DNA from: Spelaeicoccus albus
Lineage (GTDB): Bacteria > Actinomycetota > Actinomycetes > Actinomycetales > Brevibacteriaceae
Length of the DNA stretch: 64,000 nt
NCBI RefSeq assembly: GCF_013409065.1
Contig: NZ_JACBZP010000001.1
Span: forward strand, 3,544,518-3,608,517
Direction: 5' to 3'
Shown: in pieces, positions 42,618-52,724 of the stretch
How positions within the stretch are numbered: position 1 is the first letter of the stretch
How the letters are laid out: the number at the start of each line of letters is the position of its first letter
The notes under the pieces: generated by a model
Told to the model about the DNA's origin: nothing
The model's database searches: none
The model's input: only the letters and a program-made list of their open reading frames with translations
Made by a program: the position numbers and the translations under genes

Positions 42618-43993
42618 GACACGGGCTTTCGGAAGTGCGAAAACAGAGGTAGCAAAGCGATCAGTACCGCGCCGATGGCGGCGGCTGCGGTGTAGGTGAG
42701 GAACGGCGCGGCAAACCCGGCGGCATTCTGCACGGAGGAGGCAAGCGGTCCGGCCAGCAGGGCGGAAACGGTGATACTGCCGAGGTAGCGGCACGTGGAA
42801 TACACCCCGCTGGCCATGCCGGTTTCGCTCGGATCGACGGCTTCGACCGACATGGTTTGAAGTGCCGAGTTGGACAGGCCCATGCCGACCCCGGCTACCG
42901 CCAGGGCAACGCCGACGCCGACGGCCGAAAGCTGGGGCCCGGCAAATGCCAGCGGCGCCAGGCCAGCAGCGGTCACTACGAATCCAATTGCGGCCGGAAT
43001 TCGTTGTCCGACGTGATCGGACAGCCACCCTCCGAACGGGGCAAGCACGGCGACGGCAACCATCATCGCGGCTATGACGCCGCCGGTTGCGCCATCCGGC
43101 CAGTGCGGCCGATCAGCCAACAACAGCGGCAGCGACAGCAGCGGCCCGTACATGGCGAAGTTGGACAGCAAGATCCCGGCCGAGGCCACCGCAAACGGCG
43201 GATTGACGAACAGGCCGAGCGCTACGGCGGGGTCCGGATGGTTGCGTTCCTGCCGTAGTAGTACGGCCCCCGAGACCACGAGCAATAACGCCCAGCCGGC
43301 CACCGCCCAGCCGGATGCCGGCAGATCGAGGAGTCCAGCGAACGCCACCAACAGTACACACACCAACATCGACCCGACCACGTCGAACTTGCCCCCGCTG
43401 CCGGAGCGTGTGTGGCGCGGCAGCAGGAGCCAGCCGACTGCAAGCGGAACGATGAGCACGGCCAAGTTGAGTACGAACAACGCGCGCCAGCCCGATGCCG
43501 CCAACAGTAGACTTCCCACCGGCGGGCCGGCAGCTGCGGCAAGAGGCGCCGCAAGCCCGACCATTCCGATCGCGGTGCCGAGTCGTTGCCGAGAAACGGT
43601 TTCGCGCAGGATTGCGATGCCATTCGGCATCAATACTGAGGCTGCCGCTGCCTGGGCGATACGACTGGCCATCAGCACCGCGAAACTCGGAGCAATCGCC
43701 GCGCCCGCCGAGGCCACGAAGAATGCGACAAGTCCGACCAGCATCACGGGCCGCCGTCCGAAGCGGTCGCCGAGCTTGCCCACGACCGGCATTAACGCGG
43801 CCATCGTGATCAAGTACACCGTGACCAGCCACGTCCCGGCGCTCGAGCGCATACCGAAATCGTGTGTGATCGCTGGTAATGCCACCGCAATCATGGTGGA
43901 GTTCAGCGGTCCGATCAGCACGGCAAGCATCACGCTGACCACGATCAGTGCGACGTTGGCACGTCCGGTGCCGGGACGGAGTCGGACGGTCAT
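42608..43993 (-). CDS. MFS multidrug exporter (DHA2-type)
   Basis: 461 aa with about 14 hydrophobic helices. LNSTMIAVALPAITHDFG in the first helix, GKLGDRFGRRPVM in the loop 2-3 motif, and the antiporter motif C region SVLMPNGIAILRETV, GLAAPLAAAAGPPVGSLL. It is a proton-coupled exporter of drugs or metabolites. It lies between the split phosphotransferase-like gene pair (4-bp overlap) and DUF47, in one apparent operon controlled by the divergent MarR gene. Confidence 0.9.
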   Translation of the reverse strand: MTVRLRPGTGRANVALIVVSVMLAVLIGPLNSTMIAVALPAITHDFGMRSSAGTWLVTVYLITMAALMPVVGKLGDRFGRRPVMLVGLVAFFVASAGAAIAPSFAVLMASRIAQAAAASVLMPNGIAILRETVSRQRLGTAIGMVGLAAPLAAAAGPPVGSLLLAASGWRALFVLNLAVLIVPLAVGWLLLPRHTRSGSGGKFDVVGSMLVCVLLVAFAGLLDLPASGWAVAGWALLLVVSGAVLLRQERNHPDPAVALGLFVNPPFAVASAGILLSNFAMYGPLLSLPLLLADRPHWPDGATGGVIAAMMVAVAVLAPFGGWLSDHVGQRIPAAIGFVVTAAGLAPLAFAGPQLSAVGVGVALAVAGVGMGLSNSALQTMSVEAVDPSETGMASGVYSTCRYLGSITVSALLAGPLASSVQNAAGFAAPFLTYTAAAAIGAVLIALLPLFSHFRKPVSCD

Positions 43994-45687
43994 GGAGACT
44001 CCAACAGCCGCACTACCCCACTGTCACCGTCCACCTCAACCAGTTGACCGTCGGAGATGGTCGACGTTGCGCCGGCAACCCCGACTACTGCGGGTAGGCC
44101 GTATTCACGTGCCACGATCGCACAATGCGAGAGCACTCCACCGGTGTCGGTGACCACGGCCGCCGCGACCGAAAAGAGCGGTGTCCAGGGTGGAGCGGTC
44201 GTCGGAGCAACTAGTACCTCTCCGGCGACAAGCCGCCCGGCCTCAGCCAAGGTCTTGACGATCCGCGCGGTTCCTCGGGCAGTACCGGATGAACCGCTGG
44301 ACCCGCGCCACACCCCGGGCTCGGCTTGGGACTCGACGTCCTCCCCGGCCGCGGTTCCGCCGAACATTTTGCTGTGGAACCGTCCAAAGGCGCCACGCAA
44401 TTGCGGCGGCTCCCCGTCACCGAGGACCGGGGGCGGTGTGACGGCGGCAAAGTGGTCCATCTCTTCACGGTTGGACTTCACCGTTTCAACGGCAGTGTCC
44501 CGGCCGGAGGCGGTCAACGCCTGCCGCAGGTCATTCGCCCCCAACAAGAACACGTCGCTTGGCTCACGTACCACGCCCAAGTCGGACAATCGGCGACCGG
44601 CCTCGAGGAAGACACGGCGTATCTGATAGACGCCGCAATAGTCGATGTAGAACGTGTGATCCTCAGTGAGTGCGCTGCCGGTTTGTGCGGCGTTCAATAG
44701 CTTGTCGAACAGCGAGACGACCGGCCGAGGATACCCGGTCAAACGCTCGTGAGCTGCGCCGACCGCTTGATCGCGTTCACGCGCCGCCCTCTCCACGGCC
44801 TGCGCCGGGGCGGCCGCTTCGGGCTGCTCGAGATAAGATGCCAGATTTCGAATGACCGGAGTGGGGTCTTCGATCCAGCTCACCGCCGTCAAGCTGCACA
44901 AGTCTCCTCGTTGACCGTAGGTGTGCAGATAGTCATCCAACGCCCGGGCGAATTTGCGGCCGGCCGAGGTGCGGTCTAACGAGTCCCGGAAGTCCTCCGG
45001 CGGAACCGTACGCAGTAGTCGGGCCACCTCCGGACAAGCTGCCGCGTCCCGCGACAGATCCCACAGCACCTGGGCCGCCTCGACTGTCTTATTCGGAAGC
45101 CCACCCAGCAAGCTGTATGCATCCAACGCTGCACCGTCGCCGAACAGATCGTGGTAAGCATCGGTGAATTCGTTGACCGCGGCATAGGCGGGCAACACCG
45201 TCAGCATGTGCAGCTGCCACAGTCGTTCCATCCATCCAAGAGCGTGATCCACGACGTCGACGAGGTCGGAATTTGAATACGCGGTCAGATCCAGCTTTTC
45301 GAACTCATCGAGGAATCCTTGAACTTCAGGGAGGTATTCCTGCTTCCAGGCCCGAGTGAGGTCGTCCGACGCTGCTTGCATCTTCGCGTCGTCCGCAGTC
45401 GACGACACGCCCGAGCCGTCCTCGGCGTTCTCGTTGGTGATCACCGCTCGGTACACGTAGGTATTGATTCGCATTGGGCGCCAACCACGAAGAGCCAGTC
45501 CCAGTCGATCGGCGGCATACCCGATGCTTTCCATCACCGGACAGACGAACGCATCGAACTCCAGCGGCGTGACCTGATGCGGAAAGTGCTGGCTATGCTG
45601 CTGCCAGTATCGATGTGCGTCAGTCGGATTCGCCCAGGCGACCGGAAATTCTTCGGTTCGTGAATCTTTCGTGTGGTGGCGGGTCAT
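43990..45687 (-). CDS. PEP-utilising/rifampin-phosphotransferase-like protein, swivel (His) subunit
   Basis: 565 aa from ATG 45,687, which overlaps the upstream ATP-grasp gene by 4 bp. The long central region corresponds to the middle (antibiotic-binding-like) domain of rifampin phosphotransferase-type enzymes; the C-terminal 80 residues are the PEP-utiliser mobile domain with TGGVLSHCAIVAREYGLPAVVGV and the phosphorylatable His521. No ATP-grasp domain is present in this polypeptide; it is encoded by the preceding gene. The substrate is unknown. Confidence 0.85.
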   Translation of the reverse strand: MTRHHTKDSRTEEFPVAWANPTDAHRYWQQHSQHFPHQVTPLEFDAFVCPVMESIGYAADRLGLALRGWRPMRINTYVYRAVITNENAEDGSGVSSTADDAKMQAASDDLTRAWKQEYLPEVQGFLDEFEKLDLTAYSNSDLVDVVDHALGWMERLWQLHMLTVLPAYAAVNEFTDAYHDLFGDGAALDAYSLLGGLPNKTVEAAQVLWDLSRDAAACPEVARLLRTVPPEDFRDSLDRTSAGRKFARALDDYLHTYGQRGDLCSLTAVSWIEDPTPVIRNLASYLEQPEAAAPAQAVERAARERDQAVGAAHERLTGYPRPVVSLFDKLLNAAQTGSALTEDHTFYIDYCGVYQIRRVFLEAGRRLSDLGVVREPSDVFLLGANDLRQALTASGRDTAVETVKSNREEMDHFAAVTPPPVLGDGEPPQLRGAFGRFHSKMFGGTAAGEDVESQAEPGVWRGSSGSSGTARGTARIVKTLAEAGRLVAGEVLVAPTTAPPWTPLFSVAAAVVTDTGGVLSHCAIVAREYGLPAVVGVAGATSTISDGQLVEVDGDSGVVRLLESP

Positions 45688-46634
45688 GCGGTGCGCTCCT
45701 GATCGAGTCCGTTGGTTGTCCGGCCGGCTGTGGTGACCGGCCGGCATTGCAGCAGGTACAACTGGTCGGCCGTCCACGCGAACTCCGCATCGACGGGCCA
45801 GCCCATTGCTTGCTCCAAGTCGCAGGCCAGGCTGGCGGTAGCCGTCACTTGCACCGGCGACAGACACGCGACGCCGCGAAGCCGCTCCGGCACTCCGACT
45901 TCCCGAGTCCCTGCGCCAATCGCCACGGTCATCCGCTCTTTGGTCGACACGTCCGACCGGGTCATCCGGTGGCCGGCCGGCTCAGCAAAATAGTTGTCGG
46001 GAGTGACTGAGCCACCGACGATGCTCTCGCCCAGCCCCCAACTTGCGTTGATGACGATTTCGTCGTCGTGCTGCCCGAGCGGATCAAGGCTGAACACGAC
46101 CCCGGAGGTATCGGCGTTGACGAGCTGCTGCACCAGCACGGCGAACCGAGGTGCGTCCGTTGCCAGTCCATGCTGTTCGCGATATGCCTGGGCACGTGCC
46201 GAGGTGAAGGAGGCAACGCAATCGCTCACCGAGGCGACGACGGCCTCGGGGCCACGGATGTTCAAGAAGGTCTCGTTCTGTCCGGCGAACGAGGCATCCG
46301 CGCTGTCCTCGTCGATCGCCGATGAGCGGACGGCGACCGCGACGTTTGGATCGCCGCTGCGGGAACAGAGATCTCGATAATGTGCCTCGACCTGGCTCAG
46401 CAAGGCATCCCGGTTCGCCTCTGCGACGACCTGCGATGTCTCGCCGGTGAGGCAGAATCCCGGTGGCACGCTGAAGGCGGACGCCAGGCGAGAGAGATTT
46501 GCGGCTTTGCCGCCGACCACGGAGCTGTCCTGCCCCTTGCCGGCATCGCCGAGCCAATAGACTTCACATTTCGATTCATCGTCGTACGCCGATCGTTCTC
46601 GCGCGGCAGAACGTCCAATTCTTTGATCTTCCAT
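45684..46634 (-). CDS. PEP-synthase/rifampin-phosphotransferase-like protein, ATP-grasp subunit
   Basis: 316 aa. The PPDK N-terminal ATP-binding fold is complete: VGGKAANLSRL (40-50), VAVRSSAIDEDSADASFAGQ (101-120), then LVQQLVNADTSGVVFSLDP, INASWGLGESIVGG and WTADQLYLLQCRPV. It ends where single-chain enzymes continue into the middle domain, so activity needs the coupled downstream product. ATG 46,634 has GGGAGGT upstream. First gene of the operon divergent from marR. Confidence 0.87.
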   Translation of the reverse strand: MEDQRIGRSAARERSAYDDESKCEVYWLGDAGKGQDSSVVGGKAANLSRLASAFSVPPGFCLTGETSQVVAEANRDALLSQVEAHYRDLCSRSGDPNVAVAVRSSAIDEDSADASFAGQNETFLNIRGPEAVVASVSDCVASFTSARAQAYREQHGLATDAPRFAVLVQQLVNADTSGVVFSLDPLGQHDDEIVINASWGLGESIVGGSVTPDNYFAEPAGHRMTRSDVSTKERMTVAIGAGTREVGVPERLRGVACLSPVQVTATASLACDLEQAMGWPVDAEFAWTADQLYLLQCRPVTTAGRTTNGLDQERTA

Positions 46635-46704
46635 AGTTGAGACCTCCCATTTTCGTGACGCCGTGTGCACGGCTCACCTCCGGAAGTGTCGCAAGCACAT
46701 TGTT

Positions 46705-46738: not shown

Positions 46739-46750
46739 TACCATATGGTA
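46739..46750. promoter_or_regulatory. Candidate MarR operator 2
   Basis: TACCATATGGTA is a perfect 12-bp palindrome whose last base is the first base of the marR start codon. Binding here would block marR itself. Confidence 0.45.
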
Positions 46751-47163
46751 TGGAATCAATCGGCCTCCGGCTGCGCACGGCCTATTACCTCTTTCGTGCC
46801 GCCCTTGACTCAGACCTACGTGACCTCGGAATCACAGCGACCCAATACGGCGTACTCTCCCAAGTGGCTGAACGCGGTGGAAGCTCCGTCCCGCAGCTCG
46901 CCCGCCGGACCCATGTGACGCCTCAGCGAATGCACCAGATCGTCGCGGGCCTCGAGAAGGACGAACTTGTGACCCGCGATCCCCACCCCGACCTTGAGCG
47001 GGTGCTGCAAACACACCTCACCGAGCAGGGACGCGGGATATTACGTCGCTGTCAAGAGCGCGTCCAAGCCGTTGAAGACCGGATGCTTGCCGGATTCGAT
47101 AAAACCGACCGCATGCACAGTGTTGAACTGATCGACACCGTGATCGACAACCTGCAAGCCTGA
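46750..47163 (+). CDS. MarR-family transcriptional regulator
   Basis: 137 aa winged-helix protein. The DNA-binding region (about 27-95) has LGITATQYGVLSQVAERGGSSVPQLARRTHVTPQRMHQIVAGLEKDELV and the wing RDPHPDLERVLQTHLTEQG. Flanking helices would form the dimer. It is divergent from the split phosphotransferase-MFS operon, the usual set-up for ligand-controlled repression of an export or resistance operon. No ribosome-binding site is obvious. Confidence 0.9.
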   Translation: MESIGLRLRTAYYLFRAALDSDLRDLGITATQYGVLSQVAERGGSSVPQLARRTHVTPQRMHQIVAGLEKDELVTRDPHPDLERVLQTHLTEQGRGILRRCQERVQAVEDRMLAGFDKTDRMHSVELIDTVIDNLQA

Positions 47164-48632: not shown

Positions 48633-49241
48633 TTACTCCGTTGACCGTATCGGAAGCAGGTAGAACAATCCCAAGGCAATGCAGACCGCGAGCGTCAGGT
48701 ACGGCGTCGCCAAACCGAGAAGAGCCGCGACGACGTACACGGGGCAGGCGATGGCACCGCGGAGCAGGATCGCCCGTTGCCGCCGACGCCCTGGCGGGTC
48801 GTGCAAGAGCGACCTCCGGCGCACCACGATGAGCCACTGCATCGCGACGAAGACGAACGACGTCACGAAGAATGACCCCGCATAGATGACTGCCGCCAGC
48901 TGGCCGCCGTTCTTGGCGGTCAAATACGACGCGAACAAGGACGTGGTGAACGGCAAAGCAACGATGCACAGCAAAAGCAGCAAGTTGACCACGAGCACTG
49001 CGTGATCCACCGCTTTCAACCGCCGCAGCGCGGCATGGTGGTTGATCCACATGATGCCGATAGCCAGGAACGAGATGACATACGCCAGGTAATTCGGCCA
49101 CAGCGCGGCGAGCCGGCCGGCAAGGCTGCCGCCGTCGGCGGACTGCGGAACCCGCAAGTCCAGGACGAGCAGTGTGATGGCAACGGCGATGACGCCGTCC
49201 GAAAACGCTTCGACTCGTCCGATTCCGTAGGTTTCGCGCAA
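48633..49241 (-). CDS. TMEM175-family potassium channel-like protein
   Basis: 202 aa with six hydrophobic helices. The first helix carries the TMEM175 hallmark EAFSDGVIAVAITLLVLDL (FSD at 13-15), and IMWINHHAALRRL follows the third helix. Bacterial members are six-helix subunits that assemble into tetrameric K+-permeable channels. The start is TTG 49,241, supported by AGGGG seven bases upstream and lying 10 bp after the flavoprotein stop; longer readings overlap that gene. Confidence 0.85.
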   Translation of the reverse strand: MRETYGIGRVEAFSDGVIAVAITLLVLDLRVPQSADGGSLAGRLAALWPNYLAYVISFLAIGIMWINHHAALRRLKAVDHAVLVVNLLLLLCIVALPFTTSLFASYLTAKNGGQLAAVIYAGSFFVTSFVFVAMQWLIVVRRRSLLHDPPGRRRQRAILLRGAIACPVYVVAALLGLATPYLTLAVCIALGLFYLLPIRSTE

Positions 49242-49251
49242 CTGGCCGCCC

Positions 49252-50919
49252 CTAGCTGCGCAAGACCTGGTGCACCAGCTGCACGGCGACCGATCCCTCG
49301 CCGACTGCCGATGCCACCCGCTTGATCGAGCTGGTCCGCACGTCGCCGACGGCAAACACGCCGGGAGCGCTCGTTTCGTACAGGAACGGGTCCCTGTCGC
49401 CGTCCGCGGTGCGGTGGCGCCGGTCACCGAGGGCGGGTCCGGTGAGAATGAATCCACGCTTGTCCCGCGCTATTTGCGGAGGCAGCCAGTCGGTGCGCGG
49501 GGATGCCCCGACGAACACGAAGATCCCCGAGGTGGTCAGTTCCTCGGTGCCTCCCGTCGCGGCATCTCGAATCGTGACGGTTTCAAGCCGTTCGGTGCCC
49601 CCGACCGAATCGACCGACGTCCCGCAGCGCACCGCGATGTTCGAGCGCTCAGCGATCTGGTCGACCAAGTAGCTGGACATCTTTGCTCCGAGCTCGCCGG
49701 CTCGGCACAGGACGGTCACGGAGCGGGCGTAGTCGGAAAAGTACACGGCCGCCTGTCCGGCCGAGTTCGCCCCGCCCACCACGACAATGTCCTCACCGGT
49801 CACCGTGTCGCGTTCGCTCAGTGAGGCCCCGTAGAAGACGCCGCGCCCCTCGAACTCGGCACTGCCCGGCACGTCGAGGGTGCGGTAGGCGACGCCGCAC
49901 GCCAAGATGACGGACCCGCAGTTGATGGCGGAACCGTCCGCCAGTTCGAGCCTCGGGTAGGGGCCGGCCAGGTCGAGCCCCACGGCGGTGGTCGGTGCCA
50001 GCACGTCGACGTGGAAGCGGCGCGCCTGCGTCACTGCCCGGCGGGCCAAATCGCTTCCGGAAATGCCGTTCGGAAAGCCCAGATAGTTCTCGATACGCGA
50101 GGACTGGCCGGCTTGTCCGCCCGGAACGAGTTGTTCGAGGCAAACGGTCCGCAGTCCCTCGCTGGCTCCGTACACCGCAGCGGCAAGTCCTGCCGGTCCG
50201 GCTCCGACTATCGCCAGGTCGAACGATTCGGCGTCCGCGCGGGTCTTGAGACCCAGCGCGGCAGCCAAGGCGGCGACGTCCGGCGAACGCAACGAGACGC
50301 CGTCCGGCGTAATGACGAGCGGAAGCCCGTCGTCGCCGGCGGCTTCCGAGAGCTTCCTGCCCTCCTGGCTGACGTCGATGTCGAACCACTGCATGGGGAT
50401 CTGATTGCGCTGCAAGAAGTCGCGAATCTCGTGCGTGCGAGCCGACCAGCGGCTACCGACGACCCGGGTCACGGCATAGGTCGGCTGGTTGTGCGCGTGC
50501 CAATCCTCGAGCAAGTCGTCGATGACGGGGAAAAGGCGCTCCTCCGGCGGTTCCCAGGGCTTGAGGATGTAGTAGTCCAAGTGCAGATCGTTGATCGACC
50601 CGATGGCGACCTCGGTGTCGGCGTAGGCGGTGAGGAGTACTGTGCGCACGTCCGGGAAGAGCTCCAGCGCAGCGGCCAGGACCTCCGTCCCCGCGACCTC
50701 GGGCATGCGCTGGTCGGAGACGACTATTGCGACAGGATCGTCGCGCAGCTTCAACTTGCCGAGCGTGTCGATCGCTTCCGTACCGCCGGACGCCGTCAGC
50801 ACCCGATAGCGGCGTCCGTAACGACCGCGCAAGTCGCCCCGCACGGCACTGAGCACGGCCGGGTCGTCGTCGACGGCAAGGATGACGGGGCGCGGCGCGG
50901 TCGGAGGCATGTCAGTCAT
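49252..50919 (-). CDS. Response-regulator receiver / thioredoxin-reductase-like flavoprotein fusion
   Basis: 555 aa, three domains. A receiver domain (about 12-140) has phospho-acceptor Asp69 (VVSDQRMP) and Lys120. A glutaredoxin-like segment (about 148-225) lacks a CxxC (SRWSARTHE in its place). A thioredoxin-reductase-like FAD/NAD(P)H module (about 232-555) has GAGPAG (239-244), GGANSAG (382-388) and GVFAVGDVR. The position of the redox CxxC of true reductases reads YGAS (363-366). It likely acts as a phosphorylation-controlled flavin oxidoreductase without disulfide chemistry. Overlaps the kinase gene by 4 bp. Confidence 0.88.
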   Translation of the reverse strand: MTDMPPTAPRPVILAVDDDPAVLSAVRGDLRGRYGRRYRVLTASGGTEAIDTLGKLKLRDDPVAIVVSDQRMPEVAGTEVLAAALELFPDVRTVLLTAYADTEVAIGSINDLHLDYYILKPWEPPEERLFPVIDDLLEDWHAHNQPTYAVTRVVGSRWSARTHEIRDFLQRNQIPMQWFDIDVSQEGRKLSEAAGDDGLPLVITPDGVSLRSPDVAALAAALGLKTRADAESFDLAIVGAGPAGLAAAVYGASEGLRTVCLEQLVPGGQAGQSSRIENYLGFPNGISGSDLARRAVTQARRFHVDVLAPTTAVGLDLAGPYPRLELADGSAINCGSVILACGVAYRTLDVPGSAEFEGRGVFYGASLSERDTVTGEDIVVVGGANSAGQAAVYFSDYARSVTVLCRAGELGAKMSSYLVDQIAERSNIAVRCGTSVDSVGGTERLETVTIRDAATGGTEELTTSGIFVFVGASPRTDWLPPQIARDKRGFILTGPALGDRRHRTADGDRDPFLYETSAPGVFAVGDVRTSSIKRVASAVGEGSVAVQLVHQVLRS

Positions 50920-52724
50920 GAGTCGCTCCCGGCCGGACGCCGCGGCGGAAGCCAGATCCGGAATACCGTGTGCCCGGGCGTCGATTGCACGTCGACGCTG
51001 CCGCCGGTGCCGCGGATCATGTTGAAGACGATGTTCAGGCCCAGCCCGGTGCCCTTCCCCGGTGGCTTCGTCGTGAAGAACGGGTCGAACACCTTGCCCT
51101 GCGCTTCGGAGGGGATTCCGGGGCCGTCGTCCTCGATTTCGACGGCGACACCGCCGTCGGCGGCCCGTGTCCGGATGGTCAGGCGGCCCGAGCCGTCCAT
51201 GGCGTCGGCTGCGTTATCGATGAGGTTCGTCCACACCTGATTCAATTCGCTGCCCAGAGTTTCGATGCGCGGCACATCGCTGCCGTAGTCGCGGGTGACC
51301 TCAATGCCTTGCCCCAGCTTGGACTGGAGCATCACGAGCGTGCCGTCCAATCCCGAGTGGATGTCGACGTCCTGCACTGCGGCGCGGTCCATGTAGCTGT
51401 AGTCCTTGAGCGCGGACACGATCTGCGAGATTCGTGCCGATCCGTGGCCGATCTGGGCAATGAGTCCATACGCGTTGCGCGCTTCGGACAGCGCGGTGAT
51501 CGCGGTGCCGAGATGAGCGGGCTCAAAGGTGTCGGCGAGCACATCGAGCTCCCCGGCGTCCATCCCCAGGTCGACGAGAGAGCCTGCCGCATCCCACGAA
51601 TCACCGAGTCCGTGCGAGTTCAGCCAGTCCTCGATTTCCTCTTCGCGGTCGCCGCGAGTGAGCGGATCGAGCCGTTCGACATCGTTCGACTCGACTGCGG
51701 CGCGGTCGATCAGCTCGGCCAATCGCGCCGCCTCGTCGACGGTTTGGGCCGCGTGAGCCAGGGTGAGAAGAGCCGAGCAGGTATTCGAGAATGCGTCTTC
51801 GAGGAGCGCGGCCCCGCGGCGGGCTGCGGCTGCCGGGTTGTTCAATTCGTGTGCCATGCCCGCGCTCAGCCGCCCGAGGGTCGCCAGCTTCTCGCTTTGG
51901 ATCAGGGCCGCCGAACGTTCGGCGACCTCGTCCTCCAGCTGCCGTTGATAGGCCGCCTGCAATGCTTCCGCGTGCTTGCGGTCGCTCACGTCCCGGAAGA
52001 ACGTATGAGTGGCGACGAATTCTCCGTCGTGGAACCGTCCTGTCGCGTTCCCCTCGACGGGAAACTTGCGGCCGTCCTTGGCGACGAACGTGACCTCAAC
52101 CCGATCGAAAGACTCGCCACTCATGATCTGGCCGATGATTCGCGTGCAGTGGTCATGATCGATCTCGTCGACGATGTCGAACAAGGTCAGGCCCGGCAAC
52201 TCCTCGGGCGTATAACCGAGGTGATCGTGCCAGGCGCGATTGACGAATTCGAAGTGCCCATCGGGCAAGATGCTCTGCACGATGTCGTGGGCCGATTCAA
52301 TGAGGTCGAGGTAACGTCGCTCACTTTCGAGCACGTGCGCCTCGGCTTCGTGCCGAGCGGTCAGATCGCGGACGACGGCGCGAAAGACTTGCTCGTCCGG
52401 TAACCCGACGGCCGTCCAGAGCAGCCACCGGATCGACCCGTCGGCGGCGAGGAATCGATTGTGAAAATGGGCGACCGCGGTGCTTCCGCGAAGGGCCCCG
52501 AATTGCGCCCGCGTCTCTGCCGCATCGTCTTCGTGAACGAAGTCGATGAGCGGCCGTGAGAGCAGATCATCGGTGCTCCAGCCGACCAGCGCCGCCCAAT
52601 CACCGGTGGCCTCGCGGAAGCAGCCGTCGAATCCGGCCACGCAGGCGAGGTCGACGCTTTGATCCAAGAGGCGCGCTGCGACAACGTGCGGCCACGATTC
52701 GATACCAAGCCCGCTCTGAGGCAT
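50916..52724 (-). CDS. PAS-domain sensor histidine kinase
   Basis: 602 aa, soluble (no membrane helix). Two PAS domains (about 20-120 and 140-250) precede a helical dimerisation region with H-box GMAHELNNPAAAARRG (His292), an unusually long insert (about 320-420), N-box QVWTNLIDNAADAM, and G-boxes DDGPGIP and GTGLGLNIV. ATG 52,724 has AAGGAG six bases upstream. It is the partner for the receiver-flavoprotein fusion encoded next; the signal is probably redox, gas or a small ligand bound by PAS. Confidence 0.92.
   Translation of the reverse strand: MPQSGLGIESWPHVVAARLLDQSVDLACVAGFDGCFREATGDWAALVGWSTDDLLSRPLIDFVHEDDAAETRAQFGALRGSTAVAHFHNRFLAADGSIRWLLWTAVGLPDEQVFRAVVRDLTARHEAEAHVLESERRYLDLIESAHDIVQSILPDGHFEFVNRAWHDHLGYTPEELPGLTLFDIVDEIDHDHCTRIIGQIMSGESFDRVEVTFVAKDGRKFPVEGNATGRFHDGEFVATHTFFRDVSDRKHAEALQAAYQRQLEDEVAERSAALIQSEKLATLGRLSAGMAHELNNPAAAARRGAALLEDAFSNTCSALLTLAHAAQTVDEAARLAELIDRAAVESNDVERLDPLTRGDREEEIEDWLNSHGLGDSWDAAGSLVDLGMDAGELDVLADTFEPAHLGTAITALSEARNAYGLIAQIGHGSARISQIVSALKDYSYMDRAAVQDVDIHSGLDGTLVMLQSKLGQGIEVTRDYGSDVPRIETLGSELNQVWTNLIDNAADAMDGSGRLTIRTRAADGGVAVEIEDDGPGIPSEAQGKVFDPFFTTKPPGKGTGLGLNIVFNMIRGTGGSVDVQSTPGHTVFRIWLPPRRPAGSDS

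Follow-up and report, generated by a model that had tools for sequence, protein, structure and literature searches.

What does a response regulator do when its output domain resembles a thioredoxin reductase (TrxR) but lacks the cysteines with which such an enzyme reduces disulfides? The question is raised by two genes on the reverse strand of a 64,000-nucleotide stretch of the Spelaeicoccus albus genome, called the window below; the source genome is a single contig of 4.03 Mb. One gene encodes a histidine kinase. The other, which overlaps it by 4 bp (ATGA), encodes a receiver fused to a glutaredoxin-like domain and a TrxR-like flavoprotein module. The architecture itself is not new, as the locus belongs to the catalogued 'TrxB' class of response regulators. 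What deserves attention is the loss of cysteines across the family and its genomic link to a UBP zinc-finger gene. We propose, at a probability of roughly 0.5, that the two genes form a two-component pair whose regulator would be a phosphorylation-controlled, cysteine-free NAD(P)H-flavoprotein that delivers electrons to something other than a disulfide.

The missing cysteines

The closest sequence matches of the regulator are TrxRs (7jyp, E 3.4e-42), and Pfam Pyr_redox_2 covers residues 233-542 with 117.8 bits. The protein misses the cut-offs of the models for TrxR itself (TIGR01292, 209.2 versus 343.45 bits) and for AhpF (TIGR03140, 167.8 versus 502.9 bits). An internal control is provided by the TrxB encoded elsewhere in the same genome, which reads SWCATC at its active site and whose adjoining thioredoxin has WCGPC. 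The window regulator has no CxxC at any position. Residues 364-367 (GASL) lie opposite the CxxC of TrxR, and alignment to the genome's own TrxB moves the register by one.

Is this loss peculiar to one protein? We aligned 110 full-length proteins, consisting of the window regulator and its 109 best-scoring relatives, partly redundant by genus and with none dropped. The relatives comprise 29 loci from a sample of genomes of the class and the best 80 of 365 from a wider genome collection; by their titles those 80 span actinobacteria, Chloroflexi, Bacteroidota, cyanobacteria, Acidobacteriota, Gemmatimonadota, Planctomycetota and others. Their identity to the window regulator ranges from 43 to 86% (median 51%) and is at least 80% in only three of the 109. 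Residues 362-372, in the numbering of the window regulator, include no cysteine in any of the 110, a count that is independent of the alignment register. One of the aligned proteins has no cysteine at all. A further 20 loci were picked from the class-sample table so that distant and cyclic-nucleotide-type members were represented, most of them more distant than the 109. Ten have degenerate receivers, in each of which three or more of six key residues are missing; the others have cyclic-nucleotide-type N-termini (six) or intact receivers (four). None of these 20 has a cysteine at positions 363-369.

Could a CxxC elsewhere substitute for the lost one? Only two of the 110 proteins have any (L058 at 368-371 and L061 at 373-376, own numbering), both slightly beyond the site, where the sequence is variable. 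Among the cyclic-nucleotide-type proteins, L135 is an exception to the pattern, having CEVC at 479 of its own frame. The flavin adenine dinucleotide (FAD) and nucleotide motifs are kept in the window module; NSAGQ, R406 and MSxYL are found in 21 of 21 aligned proteins (the window and the 20 further relatives), and R406 is invariant in the 110 as well.

The middle domain tells a similar story. The window's copy by itself matches no Pfam family. When 16 members are combined in a profile, it matches Mycobacterium tuberculosis mycoredoxin-1 (2lqo, E 5.9e-10), whose CGYC aligns with S-A-x-S, and 13 of the 16 match Pfam Glutaredoxin at the loose limit of E<=1 (best 2.4e-5). A separate model of this domain has a mean predicted local-distance difference test score (pLDDT) of 89.2 and matches Grx/NrdH structures, the best being 3zij (Z 12.0, root-mean-square deviation (rmsd) 1.6 over 74 residues). 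The active-site CxxC or CxxS of glutaredoxins and mycoredoxins is absent from the window protein, which has SART at 159-162. In the alignment of 110, position 159 is Ser in 107, Asn in two, Ala in one and never Cys; position 162 is Ser in 94, Thr in 11, Ala in three and Cys in two. Two of the 20 further loci run against the pattern, with Cys at 159 in L126 and at 162 in L136.

The AlphaFold model of the whole regulator (mean pLDDT 87.9, predicted TM score 0.73, weak at residues 1-6 and 276-284) bears on the reductase module; the middle domain was compared separately and the receiver by sequence. The best TrxR structures match with Z up to 35.2 and rmsd 1.7 over 304 residues. Lactococcus lactis TrxR in its flavin-reducing form (5mh4) gives Z 34.6 and rmsd 2.1 over 301 residues, as against Z 30.6 and rmsd 7.7 over 301 residues for its flavin-oxidising form (5mjk); the complex of Escherichia coli TrxR with thioredoxin (1f6m) gives Z 34.4 and rmsd 2.3 over 309 residues. 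The flavin-reducing form lets the nucleotide reach the flavin. The likeness of the model to this conformation is suggestive, and without a CxxC the flavin-oxidising form has no evident use.

The initial annotation, made from the sequence, had described a receiver, a glutaredoxin-like part and a TrxR-like module with FAD and NAD(P)H motifs and no CxxC at either redox site. The Pfam matches, the mycoredoxin profile and both structural models agree with this description, and the survey of relatives extends the loss at the reductase site to the family. The annotation had gone on to suggest that the output is probably an enzyme or a redox sensor, and neither DNA binding nor disulfide reduction. No DNA-binding domain was found among the 10 Pfam families or, outside the receiver, among the NCBIfam matches listed (25 of 44), and the folds matched by the middle and C-terminal domains are redox folds. 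Since no such domain was found and the reductase CxxC is missing from the 110 proteins and the 20 further relatives, both DNA binding and canonical dithiol reduction are implausible.

Receiver and kinase

The Response_reg domain of the regulator is complete: D17, D18, D69, T97 and K120 are each conserved in 110 of 110 proteins. Two PAS folds and a HATPase_c domain make up the Pfam matches of the kinase. No membrane helix is predicted in either protein, the highest 19-residue Kyte-Doolittle mean being 1.29 for the kinase and 1.46 for the regulator. The initial annotation of a soluble PAS kinase overlapping the regulator by 4 bp thus holds in coordinates, strand, overlap, domain matches and hydropathy.

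A kinase of the same family lies on the same strand, at most 400 nucleotides upstream or 1,500 nucleotides downstream, in 94 of the 109 relatives' loci (53 downstream, 40 upstream and one both). This count, like that of the UBP genes below, is bounded by short flanks, above all in L012-L040 (about 1.5 kb or less). The 20 further loci provide a comparison. Kinase matches stand beside all four of the intact-receiver relatives, whereas none was found beside the ten degenerate-receiver loci (flanks of about 1.7-2.7 kb per side; L127 on one side only). Receiver integrity and kinase therefore occur together. No other line of evidence speaks as strongly for a role of D69 phosphorylation by kinases of this family. 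Nor was a kinase match found beside the six cyclic-nucleotide-type loci examined.

The sensory region differs among the kinases. Among ten kinases of relatives that we examined, six have a cNMP_binding domain and four have PAS. A crude pattern for the canonical cyclic-nucleotide pocket fits 19 of 96 kinases, and the sensory ligand may for this reason be something other than a cyclic nucleotide.

In the class sample, 142 of 296 genomes have a regulator match at E<=1e-80, a count that includes the window's own genome and cyclic-nucleotide-type relatives. Within the family to which the window genome belongs, 24 other genomes were searched and none has the regulator at E<=1e-60. Yet entries under the names Paenarthrobacter and Arthrobacter (L041, L043) have regulators 81-86% identical and kinases 76-82% identical to those of the window. 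The pair was therefore probably acquired horizontally. A pair at 83% identity was also found under the name of Sporosarcina beigongshangi (L042; Bacillota), in DNA of 66.8% G+C; that contig may be contamination or mislabelled. On two cyanobacterial plasmids (L143, L145), the receiver-flavoprotein and kinase genes come after glgX and an AGE-family epimerase gene.

Candidate outputs

According to the reading that we favour, the PAS kinase would autophosphorylate on H292 and transfer the phosphate to receiver residue D69, as the complete catalytic residues and the conserved adjacency suggest. The state of the receiver would then set the rotation or assembly of the TrxR-like module, and with it how readily NAD(P)H reaches the flavin. 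Hydride transfer from NAD(P)H to FAD is suggested by the conservation of both sites and by the flavin-reducing geometry of the model. From the flavin, electrons would pass to a non-disulfide acceptor, which might be oxygen, a quinone, a small electron carrier or a dedicated partner. The mycoredoxin-like domain, in which Ser and Thr replace both cysteines, would act in docking or as a linker with no redox role itself. We take the flavoprotein to be the output because it stays constant while the N-terminal input is swapped among receivers, degenerate receivers and cyclic-nucleotide-type domains.

Several points weigh against this reading. The data indicate no physiological acceptor. Canonical TrxRs bind the 2'-phosphate of NADPH with three arginines; the HRRDELR of the genome's own TrxB aligns with CRAGELG in the regulator, and only the first arginine, R406, is kept. 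With one of the three positions remaining, the preferred nucleotide is hard to tell and turnover could be weak. The model, too, might have come out in the flavin-reducing form whichever TrxR AlphaFold was given. As to the pairing, the kinase lies further off (five at about 860-880 nucleotides upstream) or on the opposite strand in six of the 109 loci, and no kinase match was found in nine, five of which have short fetched flanks.

A search for other partners brings in the main rival. When neighbouring genes were clustered, a small UBP zinc-finger gene stood out, the other clusters reflecting the kinship of a few loci. We built a UBP profile from 22 short members and checked its matches by motif. 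The gene is found in 31 of the 110 sources, and within 4 kb in 22 of the 57 loci whose flanks both exceed 3.5 kb. Two candidates, L077 and L107, proved false by the profile and the motif check. In S. fungicidicus, the regulator, kinase and UBP genes follow one another in that order and overlap by 4 bp. Across the class sample, zf-UBP is present in 133 of the 142 genomes that have the flavoprotein and in 40 of the 154 that lack it, an odds ratio of 42 that is uncorrected for phylogeny and depends on the flavoprotein cut-off of E<=1e-80.

This link is one reason to consider that the regulator is a non-catalytic sensor or scaffold, responsive to redox state or to NAD(P)H/FAD, that feeds back on its receiver or on a partner such as the UBP protein. 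Also in its favour, both electron relays have been lost while the nucleotide sites remain, and the input modules are exchanged among relatives. A pure scaffold, however, would need neither FAD and NAD(P) sites kept across phyla nor a flavin-reducing geometry. Moreover, the window genome has no zf-UBP match; UBP therefore cannot explain the window copy and is not an obligatory partner. We regard the non-catalytic role as possible but less probable than the favoured reading; it is the rival to be taken most seriously.

The favoured reading can be extended to the whole family, more tentatively. The proteins would then form a distinct pan-bacterial signalling class: a cysteine-free TrxR-like enzyme gated by His-Asp phosphorylation or by the ligand of a cyclic-nucleotide-type domain, passing electrons from NAD(P)H on to a non-thiol acceptor and having a UBP partner in most genomes. 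Such a class would add an enzymatic two-component output beyond second-messenger turnover, methylesterase and phosphatase. We consider this possible but do not lean on it.

Some UBP zinc fingers are found in other settings. One (L147:452-2323) forms the C-terminal part of a fusion with a Na+/H+ exchanger (PF00999 and PF02148), and zf-UBP within open frames of 600-650 aa recurs in other genomes of the class. At L105:2601-7680, a Na+/H+ exchanger with TrkA_N, a UBP zinc finger, the kinase and the receiver-flavoprotein stand in a row on one strand. This row is a hint of a link to ion or pH balance, into which the window's TMEM175 neighbour (Table 1) fits loosely.

A further rival is a ferredoxin/flavodoxin-NADP reductase of the TrxR-like YumC class, which also lacks CxxC; such an enzyme could have come under two-component control. 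Structures of that class are among the matches to the model (6gar, Z 28.4, rmsd 5.2; 8c16, Z 28.5, rmsd 3.4). In sequence the likeness is far weaker, the best match named ferredoxin-NADP reductase (5xhu) reaching E 1.2e-14 as compared with 3.4e-42 for TrxR. In the YumC class, furthermore, a C-terminal extension covers the flavin, whereas the regulator ends where the genome's own TrxB ends, with 0 residues beyond. Membership of that class is improbable.

Slightly less probable still is a thiol reductase that works through a single cysteine, the cysteines of a partner or cysteines elsewhere in the protein. Position 373, just past the lost CxxC, is Cys in 78 of the 110 proteins. In the window protein it is Val, no other cysteine column reaches one third of the alignment, and one relative, as noted, is free of cysteine. 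A connection to thiol chemistry might be seen in Streptomyces coelicolor SCO7298, whose transcription rises after polysulfide treatment and which the authors named trxB3 (PMC9952706, in the portion available). In the same portion, the genes overexpressed are trxA, trxA3/C, trxA4 and trxB; as trxB3 is not among them, that study is no test of a TrxB-class regulator. Finally, decay to a functionless gene would account for the lost active-site residues and is very improbable, given 109 relatives with full-length frames, an intact receiver, the same loss and mostly an adjacent kinase.

Neighbouring genes and known systems

The features of the locus are collected in Table 1. A gene for a TMEM175-family membrane protein begins 10 nucleotides after the regulator stop on the same strand. 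This gene and three neighbours assigned by eye (TetR, SGNH-type and SDR-type) have no tblastn match at E<=1e-6 at the loci of the 109 relatives, many of which have short flanks. Scans for consensus promoters and terminators were not clearly above shuffled sequence (1 versus 0.5 and 2 versus 3.5). Further off, at 43990-46670 on the reverse strand, two overlapping frames resemble by eye the nucleotide-binding and phosphohistidine parts of a split phosphoenolpyruvate-utilising phosphotransferase; a MarR-like gene (46750-47163, by eye) adjoins them.

Table 1. Positions of the kinase, the regulator and their features, in window coordinates
Feature	Position	Strand	Basis
Sensor histidine kinase, soluble, 602 aa, two PAS + H-box + HATPase_c	50916..52724	-	Pfam, kinase alignment, hydropathy
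PAS-PAS sensory region of kinase, ~aa 38-250	51975..52613	-	Pfam
H292, H-box His of kinase	codon 51849-51851	-	conserved in 96/96 aligned kinases (window + 95)
HATPase_c of kinase, aa 493-595	50940..51248	-	Pfam, E 2.6e-23
Response regulator-flavoprotein fusion, 555 aa	49252..50919	-	Pfam, sequence matches, AlphaFold model
Receiver (Response_reg), aa 13-125	50545..50883	-	Pfam, alignment
Phosphoacceptor D69 of receiver	codon 50713-50715	-	Pfam, alignment
Glutaredoxin/mycoredoxin-like domain without active-site Cys, aa 148-222	50254..50478	-	alignment, profile, model
S159-A-R-T162	50434-50445	-	alignment, profile, model
TrxR-like FAD/NAD(P) module, aa 232-555	49255..50226	-	Pfam Pyr_redox_2 (233-542), alignments, structure
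FAD motif GAGPAG, aa 239-244	50188-50205	-	alignment
G364-A-S-L367 in place of CxxC	49819-49830	-	alignment to TrxR
NAD(P) motif GGANSAGQ, aa 382-389	49753-49776	-	alignment
TMEM175-family membrane protein, possible third operon gene, inferred TTG start	48633..49241	-	Pfam PF06736, E 6.3e-32

How does this locus compare with systems already described? The combination of receiver and thioredoxin reductase has been catalogued (PMC5847659, PMC9953108 and PMC9739842, in the portions available), and SCO7298 is listed as a TrxB-class regulator with SCO7297 as its kinase (PMC9739842, likewise in part). Acid shock also raises the SCO7298 transcript (PMC2631018, available portion). The window protein has the domain combination of this class, with its receiver residues, TrxR fold and adjacent kinase. 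The class is named for thioredoxin reductase/TrxB, and the available portions of its descriptions mention neither the missing cysteines nor the glutaredoxin-like part. In the partly available open-access literature searched, we found no statement of cysteine loss in receiver-TrxR regulators and no functional study of such a protein, which is weak evidence of absence. The available part of a paper on pseudo-receivers (PMC12632262) contains no occurrence of thioredoxin, TrxB or flavo-.

Because cysteines are absent from the reductase site in all relatives examined, the usual gene name is probably misleading. Such genes are annotated by PGAP (the cyclic-nucleotide-type relatives) or studied (trxB3; PMC9952706, in part) as thioredoxin reductases, and the residues behind that chemistry are missing across our sample. 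If our reading is correct, a common class of response regulators has an undescribed redox output, and studies of transcripts or deletions in which the regulator figures as a thioredoxin reductase need reinterpretation.

With the low-molecular-weight TrxRs (1f6m, 5mh4 and the genome's own TrxB) the regulator shares the fold, the FAD, nucleotide and GDV motifs and 26-34% identity among the matches listed; it differs in the lost CxxC, the loss of two of the three 2'-phosphate arginines and an insertion before the last FAD motif. AhpF likewise carries a thioredoxin-fold domain ahead of a TrxR module, and the top Foldseek match (4xvg) spans both. With a TM score of 0.37 and rmsd of 23.9, only the layout is common; the window protein has an N-terminal receiver and has lost both CxxC centres. 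The middle domain has the profile and fold of mycoredoxin-1 and the NrdH-type glutaredoxins, whose CxxC has become mostly SxxS/T in the window family. Also related in build are the cyclic nucleotide-binding domain-containing proteins that PGAP names 'thioredoxin-disulfide reductase'. The six examined have the same mycoredoxin-like domain and cysteine-free module, but a cyclic-nucleotide-type domain replaces the receiver and no kinase match lies beside them. The family thus offers a natural comparison, in which intact receivers with kinases, degenerate receivers without them and cyclic-nucleotide-type domains are all joined to one flavoprotein.

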